From NCBI RefSeq assembly GCF_033060595.1, contig NZ_CP133038.1:2294001-2358000 (forward strand): a DNA stretch of 64,000 bases, given 5' to 3'. Made by a program: the position numbers and the translations under genes. Origin of the DNA: Pyramidobacter sp. YE332. GTDB taxonomy: Bacteria > Synergistota > Synergistia > Synergistales > Dethiosulfovibrionaceae. The first letter of the stretch is position 1. Each line of letters starts with the position of its first letter. Positions 25,438-56,025 of this stretch are shown here, piece after piece. Below the pieces are notes generated by a model. The model was not told the origin of the DNA, did not search any database, and was given only the letters and a program-made list of their open reading frames with translations.

Positions 25438-25440
25438 GCG

Positions 25441-25974
25441 CTATTTCGTTTTCGGAAGCGCTCGCTTTGGTTTGCTCACCGTCACCGTGGGAAGGGCGGC
25501 GAACTTCGGCCTGCGCCTGTTCATCTCCTTCAGCACGGCGTCGGTGACGTCCAGCCTGGGCGCCGCGTCGAGCAGCAGCTGACGCGCCATCACCGCGTGG
25601 AACTTCGGATTCTTCTTCCGCCACGCTTCCACGGACGCCATAAGTTCCGACTGCAGCACCGACGTCACCGCCGCGCGTTCCACTTCCATCTGCCGTTCCA
25701 GCGCCGCCTGCCCCTGCGCGACCGCGTTCTGCGCCTCGGCCGTGTTCTCCTGGCCGCGGTACAGCGCCCGCAGGTCGTTATACCCTTTCTGGAGCACTTT
25801 CTGCACTTCCTCCAGATGGGCCTGCCCCAGCTTGCCGGGTTCGGACTGGACCAGGAGCTTTTCCGTGTCCACCACGGCGATCTCCGTGGCAAACGCCGCC
25901 GCGGACAGCGACGCGAACATCGCCAGGAAAACTATCGATTTCATCACACGCTTCATTTTCGTCACGCACTTCAC
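25441..25974 (-). CDS. OmpH/Skp-like periplasmic chaperone
   Basis: 177 aa from GTG at 25972-25974; GAGGAG lies about 10 nt upstream. A second possible start is ATG at 25956. A signal peptide (KSIVFLAMFASLSAAAFA, cleavage before TEIAVVDTEKLL) is followed by the Skp-like helical hairpin (about 45-120, rich in E, Q, A and L). Skp proteins hold unfolded outer-membrane proteins in the periplasm. It is downstream of a giant autotransporter on the same strand, separated by the terminator at 26061-26090, so it may have its own promoter; a role in adhesin delivery is plausible but inferred. Confidence 0.7.
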   Translation of the reverse strand: MKCVTKMKRVMKSIVFLAMFASLSAAAFATEIAVVDTEKLLVQSEPGKLGQAHLEEVQKVLQKGYNDLRALYRGQENTAEAQNAVAQGQAALERQMEVERAAVTSVLQSELMASVEAWRKKNPKFHAVMARQLLLDAAPRLDVTDAVLKEMNRRRPKFAALPTVTVSKPKRALPKTK

Positions 25975-26060
25975 TAAAAAAAAACTCCTCGAATGAATGG
26001 GAAGATAAATGGCAAATTGATAGAAAATAAATAGAAACAGATAAAAAACGAACAAGAAGA

Positions 26061-26090
26061 AAGGGCGGAGCGAATAAGACTCCGCCCTTT
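26061..26090 (-). terminator. Terminator after the first trimeric autotransporter
   Basis: AAGGGCGGAG (26061-26070) pairs with CTCCGCCCTT (26080-26089); on the minus strand it is followed by TTCTTCTTGTT. It separates the adhesin from the OmpH-like gene. Confidence 0.7.
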
Positions 26091-26106
26091 TCTCTCTGCA
26101 TTGCCG

Positions 26107-26151
26107 GTCCTTTCCTTTGCAGTCCTTTCCTTTGCAGTCCTTTCTCTTTAC
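26107..26151. repeat. Short tandem repeat, 15 nt x 3
   Basis: GTCCTTTCCTTTGCA at 26107-26121 and 26122-26136 is exact; a third copy (26137-26151) is degenerate. It lies in the 26091-26203 intergenic gap, which has no gene. Confidence 0.8.
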
Positions 26152-26203
26152 ATTGCATTGCCGATACGTGCCGATCCAAGGATCGGAACGTTAGGCTGAA
26201 ACG

Positions 26204-29200
26204 TTATCTCCGTTTCGACGCCCGCAGCAGACGCTTCAATTCTTCCATGTCGGCTTTCAGTTCGGCGATCTCCTGTGCCTGAGAAGCCATCTCGTGCGCC
26301 TGCGAGGTTACCTGCGCCTGCAGCTGCGCGTTCTCCTTCTGCATCACGTAGACGCTGCTCATCGGGCCTTTGCGGTAACGTTCGGGGATCTGTTCCTTGT
26401 CTGCCTTCCTGCCGATCCTCCACGTCAGCCCGGCGTTGGCCATCGACTCGCCGTGGTGGGTGACGGACACTCCGGCGTGGACCATGAAGTCTTCTTTCAC
26501 GTAGTGCGCCCAGCCGAGGGCCAGGGCGTATTCGCCTTTGTAGGCTCCGAATCCGGCCATGAGCTGGCTGGGTTCGAGCGGGTCGTACTGCATCGGTTTC
26601 AAGGCGCTCAGGGCGGAGCCGAGCGCGCCCGAGGTTTTGATGTCTCTGCGCAGGCGGTTGAGGTGGCTGTCGATGTCGCGGAGTTGGCCGAAGTTCCGGT
26701 ACAGGGTGCTGAACTCGCGGTCGACGGCGTCGAGGGCGTCGCTGACGCTGTGGTGGGTGGCGCCGCCGCCGATGGTCTTGAATTTGTACGCGGGGGCGGT
26801 GACGGAGCCGTCGGCTTTGGCTGTGGCGCCGCCGCCGAGGTGGGTGGCGAGGCTGCTTGCGGTTTTCCACAGCTGGGCGCCGTTGACGGCGTCGCTGCTG
26901 CCGGCGGTGAGGGGGCCGGCCTGGACGTGTTCGATTTTGTGGTGGGTTGCGTCGAAGCCTTGGGCGCTCACTTTGCCGGCGAAGACGGGGGCGTCGACGA
27001 CGCTCACGGTGACGTCTTTGCCGTTATGGGGCGGGTGACGGCGATGTTCTTGCCGTTTTTGAACTGGACGGTGTCGCCGTTGCCGATGGGGGTGGCGGTG
27101 TCGCCGTTGGTCTGGAGGTTCCAGGCGCCGCTGCCGCCGCTGCCGTTGGCGATGGCGTCGAGGATGTCCTGGTGCAGGCCGATGGTGACGACGCCGCCGG
27201 CGGGGTGGTGGTGACGTTGGTGACGATCTGGTTGGAGGCGCCGACGAACTGGATGTTGGGGGTCTGGTTCTGGGCGAGGGTGACGGTGTGGCTGTGGGGG
27301 TGCTCGCTCCGTCGCTGACGCTGAACTTTGCGGAGATGTTGGTGATGGGTGCGGTGGTGGTGTTGATCAGGGTCTGGAGTTTGGCGGGGTCGAGGCCGAC
27401 TCTGAGGGTGCGTCCGCTGACGGCGGTGGTGATGACGTCGCCTGTGGGGATGATGTCGAGGCGTTTGTGCGCGCTGTCGAGGAGGATGCCGGGGGCGGTC
27501 CCGGCGGGGTCGGCGCCGATGGTGTAGGTGGCGTTCTGTCCCGCGGCGAGGGTGGCGGCTTTCAGCTGGCCGTAGTTGACGGCGTCGCCGTTGGCTGTGG
27601 CGTTGGCGACGTTGGTGATTTTCTGTCCGCCGGCGTTCAGGCCGGCGGTGGTGATGTAGTCTTTGCCTCCGACGCTGACTTTGCCGTCGCTCAGGATGAC
27701 TTTATGGGTCGAGCCGACGGTCACTTCCGCGAATTCGGGTTTTTCGCTCATGACGAGGTCGAAGCCGTCGCCGGCGGCGTTCTTTTTCACGCCGAGGTTC
27801 TTGCCGGATACGCTGGCGCTCACGCTTGCCAGGCCGCCTTTGAGGTTCAGGGTCTGGCCGAGGGTGCGATTGACGGCGCCGTCGTTGCCGGCGAAGTTCA
27901 ATCCGCCGGACAGGGCGCCGGTGATGGTGGTGATGGCGCTGTTGTTGCTGATGTCGATGTTTTGACCGAGGTTGGGGTTGGCCTTCACGGTCACTTTCGC
28001 GCCGTCGCTCCCGTCGGCTGTCACGGTCACGTCGATCTTGTTCGCTTCGCCTGCGAACTTGATGTTCTTTTTGGACGCACCACCGAGGGTAATGTCCTGT
28101 TTCGTTCCGGCTTCGTTGCTGACGGTGAAGCCGCCGGCGAGGTTCTGCACGGTGGTATTGCTGGCGATCTGGTTGTTGATGGCGGTGTTCAGGTTGGCGG
28201 TGTTGACTTTGTACTTCACGCCAGCCGTGCCAACTTCGGATTCGATGATGTTGCCGTCGCCGGCGAACGTGATGATTTCCGTTCCCGTTTTGTCGGCGGT
28301 AATGGTTTTCGTTCCGGTCCCGGTGTCGGCGATCTTGAATTTCGCTTCGACGTTATTAATCACGGTGGAGCTGTTGTTGATGGTATTGCTCAGTGTCGAA
28401 CCGTCCAGGCCGATGGTGAGGCCGCCCGCGTCGACTTTCGTGGTGACGCCGCCGGCGCCTGTGACCACCAGCGGAGTGGCGCTGTTGATCAACTTGCTGC
28501 CCGGTACGGCTTCCGCGTCCTTGATCGTCCAGTTCGCCGTTCCGCCGATGGCGCCGGTCAGGGCCGCGGTGTCGAGGCTGTACTTCACGCCGTCGGTGGT
28601 CATGGCGGACTTGATGTAGGTGCCGTCGCCTTCGAATTTGACGGTCGGTTCGGTGTCCTTGGCCAGCGTTACGGTCTTCTTCGTTCCCGTTTCCGCAGTC
28701 ACGCCGAATTTGGCGCTGATGTTGGTGATCGGGGTCGTGGTCGCGTTGTTGATGTTGGTGATCACGCTGCCGGTGATGTTCTGGGCGAGTTTGGCCGTGT
28801 CGATGCCGTAGGTGACTTTGGTGCCGGTCAGGCCGACGGTCATGGTGTCGTCGGTCGTCGCGAACTCGATCGTCGGTTTGGCGCCGCCGAGGGCGACGTT
28901 CGACGTGGTGCTGCCGGCTTTCAGGTCGAAGCCGTCTTTCAACGCGTTGATGGCCGAATTGTTGGCGATGTTGAGGTTGGTTCCGAGGTTGGGGTCGGTC
29001 TTCACGGTGACGGTGGCGCCGTCGGAGGCGTTGGCTACTTCGACGAGGATTTTGTTGGCTTCGCCCTTGAACTGGATGTTCTTTTTGGACGCGCCGCCCA
29101 AAGTGATGTCCTGCTTCGTTCCGGCTTCGTTGCTGACGGTGAAGCCGCCGGCGAGGTTCTGCACGGTGGTGTTGTTGGTGATGGCGGTGTTCAGCGCCGT

Positions 29201-32018
29201 GGTGTTGAGGCTGTACTTCACGCCGTTCGCGGTCATCGCGGAGGTGATGTAGGCGCCGTCGCCTTCGAACTTGATGGTTTCCGTTCCGGTCTTGTCCGCG
29301 GTGATGGTTTTCGTTCCGGTCCCGGCGTCGGCGATCTTGAACTTTGCCTGTACGTTGGTGATCGGGGTGGAGCCGTTGTTGATGTTGGTGATCAGCTTGC
29401 TCTTGTCGATGCCGTAGGTGACTTTGGTGCCGGAGAGGCCGACGGTCATGGTGTCGTCGGTCGTCGCGAATTCGATCGTCGGTTTGGCGCCGCCGAGGGC
29501 GACGGGGCTGGTGACGGTTCCGGCTTTCAGGTCGAAGCCGCCTTTCAGTTTCGAGATGTCGCTGGTGTGCCCGGTCACCGTGCCGGTCAGATTGGCAATG
29601 TTGGTGACGTTCTGCTGAACGGTGAGATTGTTGGTGATGGTGCTGTTCAGCTTGGTCTCGTCCAGCGTGAAGTTCAGCCCGGCGGCGTTGACGATGGGTT
29701 TGATGTAGGCGTCGCCCTTGACGACCAGCGGCGTACTGGCGTCGATGACTTTGGAGCCGGGCGTCGGGGTCTGGCTGTCCTTGATGGTCCAGTTGGCCGT
29801 TCCGCCGATGGCGGCGTTCAACGCGGCGGTGTCGAGGCTGTACTTGACGCCGTCCGTAGTCATCGCGGATTTGATGTAGGTGCCGTCGCCGGCGAACTTG
29901 ACGGTCTGCGTGCCGGTCTTGTCCACGGTCACTTCCTGCGGACCGGTGCTGTCGCCGGCGATCTTGAACTTGGCCTGCACGTTGGTGATCGGGGTGGAGC
30001 CGTTGTTGATGTTGGTGATCACGCTGCCGGTGATGTTCTGCACGAGTTTGGTCTTGTCGATGCCGTAGGTGACTTTGGTGCCGGTCAGGCCGACGGTCAT
30101 GGTGTCGTCGGTCGTGGCGAATTCCACGGTCGGAACCGGAGTTCCGCCCAGCTGCACGTTGTTCGTCGTGCTGCCGGCTTTCAGGTCAAAACCGGCTTTC
30201 AGTGCGGTGATGTCGGTGCCGTGCTGAACGACCGTAGTGTTGCTGTTCACCTGATTGTTGATCTGGCTGTTCAGCGCTGTTGTGTCGAGGCCGACGGTCA
30301 GTTTCTTGGCGGCGGCGTCGTAGGCGGTCTGGACGTAGTTGACGCCCGCGAACTCCAGGGTGTCGCCGGCCACGATCGGGCCTACGCTGCTACCGGATTT
30401 GACGTTGAAACCGGCTTTCAGGGCGGTGATGTCGGTGGTGTGCCCGTTTACCGTGGTGTTCAGACTGGTGATGGCGCCGTTGTTGGCGATGTTGAGGTGA
30501 GTTCCGAGGTTGGGGTCGGTCTTCACGGTGACGGTGGCGCCGTCGGCGGCGCTCGCCACTTCGACGAGGATTTTGTTGGCTTCGCCTTTGAACTGGATGT
30601 TCTTCTTGGGCGCGCCGCCGAGGGTGATGGTCTGCTTCGTACCGGCGGCGTTGCTGACGGTGAAGCCGCCCTTGAGGGCGTTGATGGCGGTGGTGTGCCC
30701 GGTGATGGTGGTGTTGTTGGCGATCTGGTTGTCGATGGCGGTGTTCAGGTTGGCGGTGTTGACTTTGTACTTCACACCGCTCGTGCCGACTTCGGATTCG
30801 ATAATGTTGCCGTCGCCGGCGAACGTGATGATTTCCGTTCCGGTCTTGTCCGCGGTAATGGTTTTCGTTCCCGTCCCGGTGTCGGCGATCTTGAACTTGG
30901 CTTCGACGTTATTAAATCACGGTGGAGCTGTTGTTGATGGTGCTGCTCAGATTCGCGCCGTTCAGGCCGATGGTGAGACCGCCCGTGTCAACTTTGGTGG
31001 TCACGCCGTTTTCGCCTTTCACGACCAGCGGCGTGGCGGCGTTGATCTGTTTGCTGCCGGGCGTCGGGCTCTCGTTGTCTTTGACGGTCCAGTTGGCCGC
31101 TCCGCCGATGGCGTTGTTCAGCGCCGCGGTGTCGAGGCTGTACTTGACGCCGTTCGCGGTCATCGCGGAGGTGATGTAGGTGCCGTCGCCTTCGAACTTG
31201 ATGGTTTCCGTGCCGGTCTTGTCCGCGGTGATGGTTTTCGTTCCCGTCCCGGCGTCGGCGATCTTGAACTTGGCCTGCACGTTGGTGATCGGGGTGGAGC
31301 CGTTGTTGATCTGATTGATCACGCTGCCGATGATGTTCTGCACGAGTTTGGTCTTGTCGATGCCGTAGGTGACTTTGGTGCCGGTCAGGCCGGTGATCTG
31401 ACGGGTGACGCGCATACTGGCAGGGGTCGAAGAGCTGGTGTCGCCCACAGAAAGAGCCGCGCGCGTGGCTCTCCATTCTCGACCGTCTGAAGAGTTGCCC
31501 AGATATCCGAGCTGCCCCGCCTTTGTATCAGCTTTCGAGTAGCTGCCAAGGGCGACGCCGTCGGCAACAGTTACCTGACCGCCGATGGCAATGCCATGTG
31601 TGGCGGCTGTGGATGTCGTTCCCATCAGCGCCAGCGAGTCTTGCCCATCTGTTTCTGCATGAAAGCCCAGTGCAGTGGAACGCATACCTTTCGCTTTTGC
31701 GTTACTTCCGATCGCGAAAGATACACCACCCGTGGCTTTCGCATTACACCCTATCGCGTAACTTTCGTCGTCGGTCGCCCAAGCCTCGTACCCTATCGCC
31801 ACGGAATGATGGCCAAGCGCCTTGGCGGAAGTTCCTATCACAGACTCTGACACACTTCCCAACACGGCGCCCGAGCCAATCCTCAGATGATCCCCGGTAA
31901 CGTCGACACCAAGAGCGCTCCCCGCTCCCGTCGTTCCTCCCAGCGCCAGCGCCAGAAGCAGGGCCGCCGCCTTTCGTCCGAAAGGCGGCTTCCGCCGTCC
32001 CGTAACTTTCACTTTCAT
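26204..32018 (-). pseudogene. Trimeric autotransporter adhesin (YadA-like) 1, reading frame interrupted
   Basis: About 1,930 codons from ATG 32016-32018, preferred over the ATG at 32024 because GGGAGG then lies 8 nt upstream. Order: signal peptide (KAAALLLALALGGTTGAGSALG), YadA head repeats (SVAIGYEAWA, FAIGSNAKAKG, STALGFHA; 31.4-31.9 kb), a long stalk of repeated modules ([31 protein letters not shown]), and a YadA anchor ([17 protein letters not shown]... to [10 protein letters not shown]) followed by a ~50-aa coiled coil. These proteins form trimeric surface adhesins. The frame breaks at 30914-30916 (AAA where a paralogous module has AA) and is shifted between 27028 and 27300 by three apparent one-base losses in G-runs. 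It may be a real pseudogene, a switch, or sequencing error. Confidence 0.85.
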
Positions 32019-32125
32019 CTTCATGACCTCCCCGAAATATGCGCCGCGCCGTCCCGCTTTTTCGGCGCTCCGTCCGGCGCGACGCTTGTGGTAGCATACA
32101 ATAAGCTACTCTAAGAACGTTCACA

Positions 32126-32144
32126 ATCATATCGTACCCCCCCC
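32126..32144 (-). promoter_or_regulatory. G8 tract next to a candidate -10, upstream of adhesin 1
   Basis: On the minus strand a G8 run (32137-32144) lies 5 nt upstream of TATGAT (32126-32131), about 110 nt before the adhesin start. No good -35 lies 17 bp upstream; CTTTAC (32147-32152) and TTTACG (32146-32151) are 15 and 14 bp away. 32145-32291 holds only GC-rich hairpins. Confidence 0.4.
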
Positions 32145-32470
32145 GCGTAAAGATTACTTACTGTATGTATCAGCCTCCCGTCCGCAGCGGAGGGCGCCGC
32201 CGCGGTTCCCGCGGCGGTCGTCGGCTGCCGCGCCGGGGTCGGCGGATGCCGACGGAAACGGTCAAAATCAACAATTATTTTCAGAATTTATTTACCGAAA
32301 AACATCGTTAAAAACAGAAAACTTCATGAAAAACATCGGATCTCCGCCCGGCCCGCGCCGCGGATCTTCCCCGGGATCTGCCGCGCGATATTTCAGTGAG
32401 GAAACAAGAGGGACCGCCCCCGCCGCCGTCCGCAGGGCGCACGCGCCTTTTCGAAGGGCCGGCGGCAAAC

Positions 32471-51432: not shown

Positions 51433-54400
51433 TTACTTGAGCTTGCCCGAAGCGCGTAGCAGGCGTTCCAGACGCTCCATGCGCTCCTTCATCTCCGCCT
51501 GTTCGCGGGCCTGCGAAGCTTTCAGTTCCGCAATCTCGTGCGCCTGCGAGGCCACCTGGGCCTGCAGCTCGGCGTTCTCCTTCTGCATCACGTAGACGCT
51601 GCTGATCGGGCCCTTGCGGTAGCGTTCGGGGATCTGATCCTTGTCTTCTTTCCTGCCGATCTTCCAGGTCAGTCCGGCGTTGGCCATCGAATCGCCGTGG
51701 TGGGTGACGGACACTCCGGCGTGGACCATGAAGTCTTCTTTCAGGTAGTGCGCAAAGCCGAGGGCCAGCGCGTACTCGCCTCTGTACGCTCCGAAGCCGG
51801 CCATGATCTGGCTGGGTTCGACGGGGTCGTACTGCATCGGTTTCAGGCCGGCGAGGGCGGAGCCGAGCGCTCCGGTGGTCTTGATTTCGCCTCTCAGTTC
51901 GCCCATCTGGTTGTAGACGTCGCCGAATCTGTTGTAGATGTTGTTGAACTGTGTGTCTACGGCGCTGAGGGCGTCGCCGACGTTGTGGTAGGTGCCGCCG
52001 CGGATGTTGTAGGTGGGAGCGGAGATCGAACCGTCGGAGTTGACCGTGGAGCCGCCGCCGAAGTGGTTGGATACGCTCGACGATACGCCCCACAGCTGGG
52101 AGCCGTTGACGGCGTCGGCGCTGGTCTGGCTGACTTCGCCCTTGGCGACGTTGGCGATCTTTTTGTTTCCGGCGTTGATGCCGGCCTTGGTGACCGAGGG
52201 GCCGTTTTCAATGACGAGGCCGTTGTCGGTGATCGAGGTGTCGCCGGCCGTAAAGGTGTTCGCCGTGACGCTGTTGAAGTTCACGTCGGCTTTCGTGGCG
52301 ATCGTGACGTTTTTGTCGTCGCGGGCGATGGTGATGTTGTCGCCGCTGGTGAACGTTACCGTGTCGTTGGGATTGACGGCGACTGCCGGCTGCGTGCCGG
52401 GCTTGGTATCGAGATTCCAGGAGCCGCCGCCGGCGCCGAGCAGGGCTTTGAGCTGGGCGACGTTGACGGCGTCGGTGTCGTTGACGCCGGCCGCGACGCC
52501 GGTGATCTGGCGGGTGACCGGCGTTCCTCCCGTGATTGTCACCGCGCCGACGGAAACGGCTGCGGCGGTGGATTTCCAGACGCCGGTCGTATCGTTGGCG
52601 TGGTCTGCCCCAGGGGTGGGATCGTAGCCGACGACGCCTTTGTCGACAGAGGCCACTGAGCCGCTGCCGAGGGCCACGCCGCCGTCGACGGTCGAATTGG
52701 CGTTGTAACCGAGAACCACGACATTCTTCTTGTCCGTCACTGATAAACCGGCCGCCCCCGTACCCGGTTTGTCAGCGGAGCCAAGAACGATACTGCCGCT
52801 CGCTCCGTTCAGCTGCCGGTAGTCGCCCAGCAGCAGAGCGCCGTCGGTGTCTGTTACCTCATTCCCCGAGCCGATGACGGTGACGTTATTGATATTCTTG
52901 CCGGTGTTTCCGAAACCGTCGATCATGTTCAGCTTGCTTTCCTTGCCGTCTTCGCCGGTCAGAGTATTCCCTATGCCGACCAGCTTAGAATGCGTCGCAT
53001 AATCGGCGACGTTGCCGCCGCCGATGGCAAGCACCGCGCCGCCGCTGGAGGAAACATATTCGCCCAGCTTCTTTGCCAGTGCTTCCGTATTCCCAGTTTG
53101 AGCTATTCCGGCGATTTCCATCAGATTGAAAGCGTTTCCATCTTTGTCTTTCAGGTCGCCGTAGGAATTTTTGATGATGTTCCCCGCGCCGAAAATGAGG
53201 GACGCATTCGCGCGGTCGGTAACATTGACGGTACCGACGATGCTGTTTGCCACGCCGTCATACTGCTCACCGCTTTTCGCGTTGATCGTGTTCATCGTGC
53301 CGAAAATGCTGGCAGTCGCTCCCTGCGGCTCATTGTTCACGTTGATGGAAGACCCCAGTCCGGCAACGATCGATGCGGTTCCTTTCGCTCCATCATTATT
53401 ATAATTCGGCGCAAAGCTCAACTGTCCATTTCGATCATTTACGCTGTAATAATGGGTCTTGGCCGCTTCTACGCTGGCTGCCTGCACCGCCTTCAGCTGC
53501 GCCACATTGACCGCATCAGTGTCATTCGTACCGGCAGCGAGATTGGTGATCTGGCGGGTGAGTCCAGTCGTCTTGTCGCCGATGGAAAGAGCGCCCAATT
53601 TGGATTGCCACGCCTTATCCGCGTTTGTGGATTTCCTCCCGGTAGACGGGTCATACCCGAATTCGCCGCTACTGGTATCCGCCACACTGAAAGCGCCAAG
53701 CGCCACGCCGCGGTTGACCCTGGCGTGAGAATCATAGCCCATGGCGATCGACGTCTCTTTTTCCGCACTGCTCTTCGAGCCGATTGCGATAGTCCAATCA
53801 GCTGCGGCCTGGCTCTCGTTACCGACGGCCAAAGCTTCTTCGCCCTTGACGGTCAGATCGTTCCCCAAGGCGATACCTCTCTGTCCGCCATCATCGTCCA
53901 TACCGATAATAGTATTTCCATGACCGACAGACGTTCCCAAACTATCGGATACGGAACTGGTGCCTACCACGACGCTCCCGCCGTTCACCGTGTTGGTCAG
54001 GCCGACGGCCACGTTCTGGTCGCTGCCGCTGGAGTTCTTGGTGTAGATCCACTTTGTCGGATCGGACGGATCTTTTTCCGCCGTATAGCCGACCAGGTTC
54101 CCCACACCGATGACCGTATTCTGTTCACCAAAGACTTTTGTCAGCTTATGGTCGTAATTATTATAATCCGTGCCGAATACGGCATTATGAGCGCCCTCCA
54201 CCTCTACGTTCTGACCGGCGACGATGCTGTTGTTTCTTCCGTTTTTATCCCCTGTCAGTTTGTTGTTATTTCCGAGAACGGTACTGTTTATCCCTTTCGA
54301 AGAAGAGGAAATACCGAGCACGATGCTGTCTTCCGCCTCGGCGCCGTCATTGTCATAGTTGCTGCCGGCTCCCGTTTTCGTGGAGTTGGCGCTGTAATAA

Positions 54401-55986
54401 TGCACTTTCGCGGCATCGGCGGCGGATTTCACTGCTTTCAGCTGGCGCAGGTTGACCGCGTCGGTTTCTTCCGTTGCGTCGCCGACGTTGATGATCTGCC
54501 GCAGTTTGTCCGCCGTGCCTACGGAAACGGCGCCGGCCGTTTTGCCGTTCAGTTCAAAATCACTGAATGCGCCCTTTGTGGAGGCGGTAAAAGCGCCCCT
54601 GTCCGCCAGCGATCCGCTGCCGAGGGCGACGCCGCCTTCTTTTTGCACGTCGGCGTTATGGCCGATCAGCACGGCATCGGCGACTTTCAGTTCTTTCTCG
54701 GCGTCGGCCGAGCCGAGAACGACGCTGTAGTTCGCGCCGGAGAGCTTGCGCCTGTCGCCCAAGAGAAGCGCCGTGTCCGTGTTTTCCACCGTGTTCTCGG
54801 AGCCGATGACGCTGACGTGATTTACGTTTCTGGCGGTATTTTTGTAGCCGTCGAGCAGGTTGTACTTGCTGGGAGAGCCGTCGGCCCCTTTCAGCGTGTT
54901 GTTGACGCCGATGATCTGCGAAACCTGCGTCCAGTCGGCGGTGTTGCCGCCGCCGATGGCGAGAGTTGCGCCGCCACTATTAGAATTTTTTACGGCGGTC
55001 ATCAAAGACTTCTGCAAAGCCTGTACGGAATTTCCGCTACTGGACGGAGCGGAAATAGAAGCAACGGAGTTTGTAATTTCATTGCCGGCGCCGAAAACCA
55101 GAGAACCGTTGGAGTTGAAAGTCCGATTTGCAACACCGACAATACTGTTCGCTATGCCGGAATCATCGGACGAAGCTGTTTTAGATTCAATAGAGTTTAA
55201 GGAGCCTGTAATAGTGGCACCGAAATTTTGGGACGCTTTAGAATTAAAATTTCCCCCATTATAAGCGCCGGTAATCGCCGAATAAGCACCGGTAACAACG
55301 CCAAAAGCCGCGTTATTGAAGCTGTTTGTCCCCAGTGTAGTCGCATTGACAATAACATTATTGGAACGCATATTTGCTTCAGAACCAGTATCCACATCGG
55401 TGTCATAAAGCTTTCCTTTAAAATTATGAGTACCAATCATCACACCGCCGGTACGGGCATATGTGTTTTGCCCGATCGCAATACCGGTAACAACTTTGCT
55501 CGGATCAGCAGGGATAAAAGGAGACTGCAGTCCCAAAAATCCACTTCCGGTAAATGAAGTCTGTCCAAAGTTAAAGTTTTTCTCCTGCACCCCTGCCATA
55601 TTTTCTGAAAACGCATTCTGCCCAATAGCAATTCCACCGCCCTGGCTGACATAGTTATTGGTTTTGGCACCACTTCCTACCACGATATCACCGGTTGCAG
55701 CGCTGGCTCCATTAGAATAGCTAATAGTCGCACCCTTCCCGATCGCCACATTTTCCGCTTTCGGCGCATTGCTGCCCGTGCCGTAAGCGACGCCGCTGCC
55801 AGCCCCGGTGGCGGTATCCGCCGCCATTCCCGGCACGGCCTTCATCAGCATCAATCCCAGCGCCACGGCGGCCAGCGCGCCGCCTTTCAGGACGGGCGAC
55901 GGGCGTTTTTCGGCGAGAGGCGTCCCTCTCCCCCCGCAAATGTCCGGCACCAGAGCGGAAGCGCAGACCTTGGTACGTTTTTCCAT
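51433..55986 (-). CDS. Trimeric autotransporter adhesin (YadA-like) 2, intact
   Basis: 1,517 aa from ATG 55984-55986, with GAGGAGG 9 nt upstream (an ATG at 55995 is too close). A long signal region has a hydrophobic core [20 protein letters not shown]. The head holds many SVAIG-type repeats ([30 protein letters not shown]). Two neck/connector units carry [12 protein letters not shown] and [12 protein letters not shown]. Then a short stalk, the YadA anchor ([20 protein letters not shown] to [10 protein letters not shown]) and a ~55-aa coiled-coil tail. A block of ~350 residues occurs twice ([20 protein letters not shown] and [20 protein letters not shown]). Surface adhesion in a trimer is the family role. 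Confidence 0.92.
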
Positions 55987-56025
55987 CAACAACATCCTCC
56001 TCGAGAGTTTATTTCGAAAACATCA

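Follow-up and report, generated by a model that had tools for sequence, protein, structure and literature searches.

In Neisseria, the porA, fetA and opc genes carry homopolymers between their -10 and -35 elements, and altered binding of the sigma factor is given as the accepted mechanism (PMC2791445). Genes for trimeric autotransporter adhesins (TAA genes) are also phase-varied by upstream repeats. In Moraxella catarrhalis strain 195ME the length of a poly-G tract sets the mRNA of the TAA gene uspA1, with low levels at G8-G10 and high levels at G11-G12 (PMC7302503), and in N. meningitidis the nadA gene has TAAA repeats upstream of its promoter, with NadR/IHF mediating their effect (PMC2791445). 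A further Moraxella TAA gene, uspA2, is varied by an AGAT repeat. The uspA1 tract is cited among 5' UTR repeats in PMC2791445.

The tract described here, a run of eight G in a 64,000-nucleotide stretch of Pyramidobacter DNA (the window), resembles each of these systems in part. Like the tracts of meningococcal porA, opc and fetA, it is a homopolymer that separates the two core elements in the promoter of a gene for a surface protein, and like that of uspA1 it is of the G8-G12 type and stands upstream of a TAA gene. It shares with nadA and uspA2 the control of a TAA gene by an upstream repeat, although theirs are tetranucleotide repeats and the Pyramidobacter tract is a mononucleotide spacer of the core promoter. 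In uspA1, a single gene, the repeat is cited as lying in the 5' UTR, whereas the Pyramidobacter tract is by sequence between -35 and -10; being upstream of the -10, it falls outside the predicted transcript. Of the parallels with Neisseria and Moraxella drawn by the first-pass annotation, made from the sequence of the window alone, that with Moraxella is close in gene type but does not extend to the site of the uspA1 repeat, and for the proposed mechanism porA/opc of Neisseria come nearer. The Neisseria examples also differ in scale and lineage, each being one gene (for PorA, Opc or FetA) of a betaproteobacterium, whereas here the putative switch recurs at no fewer than nine TAA genes in a member of the Synergistota. 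The host belongs to the genus Pyramidobacter (Dethiosulfovibrionaceae, Synergistota), whose members inhabit the mouths and guts of humans and animals; to our knowledge, little has been learned about surface variation in this genus.

The G8 tract and the adhesin gene downstream

The promoter region lies on the minus strand, as do all window features given below, and reads 5'-CTTTACG C GGGGGGGG TACGA TATGAT TG-3'. The G8 homopolymer (32137..32144) is preceded by a -35-like TTTACG (32146..32151), which is TTTACA in three related promoters, or alternatively by a -35-like CTTTAC (32152-32147). Five bases, TACGA, separate it from a -10-like TATGAT (32126..32131), and an equivalent hexamer follows the tract by 4-6 bases in most paralogs. 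The homopolymer therefore sits, by sequence, between -35 and -10 elements as in porA/opc-type promoters. This is exactly the arrangement that the first-pass annotation had reported, with G8 5 nt upstream of TATGAT and a spacing of 14-15 bp: at G8 the spacer measures 14 bp from TTTACG and 15 bp from CTTTAC. It further suggested that two or three added G would bring the spacing to 17; counted from TTTACG, and given the five bases that part the tract from the -10, G11 would give 17 bp.

The two hexamers match the consensus at 4/6 and 5/6 positions, and a sigma-70 consensus scan requiring 16-18 bp spacing returned no promoter here at G8, as would follow from mis-spacing at this tract length. Upstream of the -35 lies an A/T-rich stretch, ATACATACAGTAAGTAAT (32153..32175), that in alignment is partly common to the paralogs (ACAATAAG-like) and is a possible UP element. 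No other G or C homopolymer of at least 7 occurs in the 64-kb window. Under a first-order Markov model of the window, ~1.8 G8/C8-or-longer runs are expected, so that a single run is on its own unsurprising.

The adhesin gene starts ~113 nt downstream of the tract, behind an RBS-like GGGGAGG (32027..32033). Its 5' part (30912..32024, 370 aa) comprises a signal peptide, with the hydrophobic N-terminus AAALLLALALGG recognized by eye, and a YadA head with head repeats (YadA_head match, E 2.3e-11), and ends at a frame break. The 3' part (26204..30775, 1523 aa), read in another frame, comprises a coiled YadA stalk (3.6e-9) and a C-terminal YadA membrane anchor (5.8e-12). Because the open frame of this second ORF extends back to ~30916, where the head ORF stops, the two ORFs are most simply one TAA gene; the break at 30912-30916, as read in this assembly, may be either natural or an assembly error. 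Of the large surface adhesin announced downstream of the tract, the surface-exposed nature stands, given the head, stalk and anchor domains of a YadA-like TAA, but the gene is split into two ORFs in different frames, stalk and anchor being parted from the head. The second TAA gene of the window (51433-55995) has a G6 run in its 5' coding part (55931..55936), at a place where the paralog at C1:1686829 has a G8/G11 coding switch; being short, this G6 is probably not variable at its present length.

Sister promoters sharing the cassette

To place the tract in its genomic context, we used the host genome (G000; 2.8 Mb in two contigs, with the window tract at ~2326k), Pyramidobacter sp. C12-8 (G003), a second strain classed as the same species, and two other Pyramidobacter species (G001 and G002); whole-genome counts for the host derive from pattern searches. 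The host carries 17 YadA anchors. A search for the TCTTTACRCGGGG box found nine sites in the host, six in C12-8 and one in G002, and all nine host copies (TCTTTACRC-Gn) lie directly upstream of TAA genes. The same box had no matches in eight other-genus genomes of the family, a reversed-box control had none across the Pyramidobacter genomes, and a GTDB-wide search with ATCTTTACGC-G8 matched only four sites in C12-8 and a single one in Trichococcus. Tract lengths at the nine host promoters are n = 5, 6, 8, 8, 8, 9, 10, 11 and 13, corresponding to G5 at 1986k, G6 at 278k, G8 at 779k, 1585k and 2326k (the window tract), G9 at 1116k, G10 at 228k, G11 at 485k and G13 at 1271k. Poly-G is also found at other TAA genes, as a G10/C10 run between the TAA at 2502k and its neighbour gene, a G7 upstream of that at 1369k, and a G8 within the first codons of that at 1679k.

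Runs of G>=8 are depleted in the host genome, with 12 observed against ~79 expected from first-order composition. Nine of these 12 stand at TAA 5' ends, which make up ~0.3% of the genome (binomial P ~5e-21), placing the position of the tracts far from chance. Genomes of other genera in the family have up to 55 such runs each, none with the box, so the abundance of poly-G alone is not the signal.

An alignment of 11 promoters from three genomes gives a near-invariant ATCTTTACRC with divergent flanks, and the conserved island reaches ~18 nt upstream of the tract. The -35-like and -10-like elements border the tract at every paralog, with some sister promoters having a poor -10 (TAGTGT, TAAGCT). 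To reach a 17-bp spacer, seven promoters would require 11 G and the remaining ones 10 or 12, apart from one diverged C12-8 copy that would require 13. Judged from the alignment, it is the length of the tract that varies, while the element pair and its offset are kept. A whole adhesin family with one common variable promoter repeat is otherwise reportedly found in Mycoplasma gallisepticum, where the pMGA/vlhA lipoprotein hemagglutinins are said to carry a promoter GAA repeat that, unlike the tract considered here, is a trinucleotide repeat and lies upstream of the core promoter.

Tract length between strains and species

Tract length, which the first-pass annotation proposed to count across isolates, was compared between the host and C12-8 over 1.3 kb at each of seven comparable TAA loci, and the promoter or upstream tracts differ at four of the seven. 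At 278k the host has G6 and C12-8 has G9, and the 1303 aligned columns show no mismatch; at 1585k the lengths are G8 and G9, with two mismatches; at 2497k they are G10 and G8, with similar flanks; and at 1271k they are G13 and G9, in a diverged copy of 88% identity. The tracts at 228k (G10), 1116k (G9) and 1986k (G5) are identical in both strains. Among control homopolymers of >=5 in ~63 kb of aligned sequence, 7 of ~236 differ, each by one base (Fisher P ~8e-5 against the TAA tracts), a comparison partly confounded by the inherent instability of long tracts, as most of the control runs are shorter.

One-base gaps in 80 kb of aligned sequence number 12 in the host, nearly all of them in homopolymers of 4-7, and six in C12-8, which suggests residual long-read errors in the host assembly. 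Because this assembly loses single bases in homopolymers, a one-base difference is weak evidence of tract variation, and the 3-G difference at 278k and the longer host tract at 2497k are the stronger evidence. Assembly losses were considered as the cause of all the differences and are ruled out in that role by the 3-G difference and by the loci at which the host tract is the longer, and they are kept as an explanation for the one-base cases. A MutS gene was found in both the host and C12-8, which gives no hint of a raised slippage rate, and any instability would then come from the tracts themselves. Outside the TAA genes, a poly-G in a penicillin-binding-protein-like ORF is G8 in the host (C1:1870341-1870348) and G9 in C12-8 (contig C106), with ORFs of 767 and 777 aa, and possibly represents a coding switch or an assembly error.

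For the window tract itself the comparison comes from another species, as contig C174 of C12-8 begins at window position 32310 and the tract is outside the assembled sequence of that strain. G002 matches window positions 25439-26995 at 81-83%, over the end of the anchor and the gene that follows the adhesin, and the sequence of its orthologous promoter, ahead of a YadA head/stalk protein, is TTTACA-C-G10-TATGG-TATGTT. With G8 in the host and G10 in G002 at the same locus, the tract has been kept across species at a different length.

A second kind of tract was found within the coding sequence of another TAA. In the host, the opening codons of a TAA ~2600 codons long contain a poly-G (C1:1686829-1686836), and the frame from the start codon runs through this tract. 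The host copy (G8) is out of frame and stops after 17 codons. In the C12-8 copy (contig C120), which has G11 and also differs at other positions nearby, the frame stays open into the adhesin. By these reading frames, the 1687k poly-G is a further putative phase switch of the host genome, acting on translation.

Proposed switching and alternative explanations

We propose, with a probability of roughly 0.8, that the G8 is the variable spacer of a YadA-type TAA promoter, one of at least nine sharing the cassette, and that its slippage alters transcription. Slipped-strand mispairing in replication would alter the number of G, and a changed number of G would change the distance between the -35 (TTTACR) and the -10 (TATGAT-like) and thereby adhesin transcription. 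Transcription is predicted to be high from tracts giving 16-18 bp and low or absent outside this range; at the window promoter, G10-G12 would be high and G8 (14 bp) weak or off. The idea of a promoter-spacer adhesin phase switch, raised for this one gene by the first-pass annotation, has gained support from the nine paralogous promoters, the inter-strain differences, the other species and the coding switch. As far as sequence comparison can carry it, phase variation is strongly supported for the TAA family, and we infer from the family that it would extend to the window gene.

That the arrangement is a chance one, an unrelated homopolymer amid promoter-like hexamers, would fit the number of G8/C8 runs expected in the window and the imperfect hexamers, yet its recurrence at nine TAA loci of the host and again in a second species refutes this reading, to which we assign next to no weight. 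More substance attaches to the view that the spacer is static, inherited with duplicated adhesins, and that its lengths have arisen through gradual divergence and errors of assembly, with no switching in populations. The promoters are indeed paralogous copies (identity between the 779k and 2326k regions is 95% across 301 bp), three tracts are the same in both strains, and the host assembly does lose homopolymer bases. However, one-base losses and slow divergence fail to account for the 3-G change at 278k and the longer host tract at 2497k, and G>=8 runs are depleted elsewhere in the genome yet kept at the TAAs, making a static spacer quite improbable.

The tract may alternatively be variable and affect expression by a route other than spacing, through DNA shape, the position of a regulator acting on the ACAATAAG...ATCTTTACRC box, or, should transcription start farther upstream, the 5' UTR. 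The conserved island of ~18 nt exceeds the need of a -35 hexamer, the T-tract of H. pylori sabA acts on RNA polymerase binding and not merely as a spacer (PMC4081817), and the cited 5' UTR placement of the uspA1 repeat offers a further precedent (PMC2791445). On the other hand, elements flank the tract at all paralogs and the number of G for 17 bp is near-constant, as a spacer model predicts, and we regard such a route as unlikely, if somewhat less so than a static spacer. The spacer switch accordingly remains our preferred explanation for the variable tracts.

With at least nine cassette promoters and at least one coding-switch TAA, a cell would randomly vary the adhesins that it displays, and adhesins switching independently would yield many display combinations per population. 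We lean, by a small degree, towards a combinatorial adhesin repertoire on a genome-wide scale, in which at least nine cassette TAAs and coding switches slip independently and heads and stalks recombine between loci. If true, Synergistota would gain their first described case of phase variation by slippage, and the known range of the porA/opc mechanism would widen to a distant phylum of diderms; a cassette on most of a 17-member family would explain heterogeneous populations for attachment or immune avoidance. The mechanism is a known one, of the porA/opc type, and its family-wide use in Synergistota appears to be unreported: the open-access literature yielded no paper tying Pyramidobacter or Synergistota to phase variation, one paper with 'Synergistetes' mentioning only DNA inversions, and the literature searched described no such cassette common to nine or more TAA genes in this phylum.

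Several further loci were noted in the course of this analysis. The sister adhesin with the G5 promoter (C1:1985937 in the host, contig C101 in C12-8) shares its head sequence with the 779k adhesin, and heads and promoters seem, from such sequence matches, to have been shuffled between loci by recombination. Three near-identical TAA loci of the host (C1:7617, 2732892 and 2758680) are without poly-G and were apparently copied together with the upstream gene. In G001 (C33:911-920), a G9 followed by TATGAC stands upstream of a 684-aa open frame and is possibly a further switch; this frame has no Pfam match and was hence left out of the counts. A tract of G9-G10 at an apparent tRNA gene (C1:1344766 in the host, and in G001 and G002) is unrelated to adhesins. 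At C1:485113-488753 in the host, a transposase-like ORF ~1 kb downstream interrupts the TAA that has the G11 tract in its promoter.
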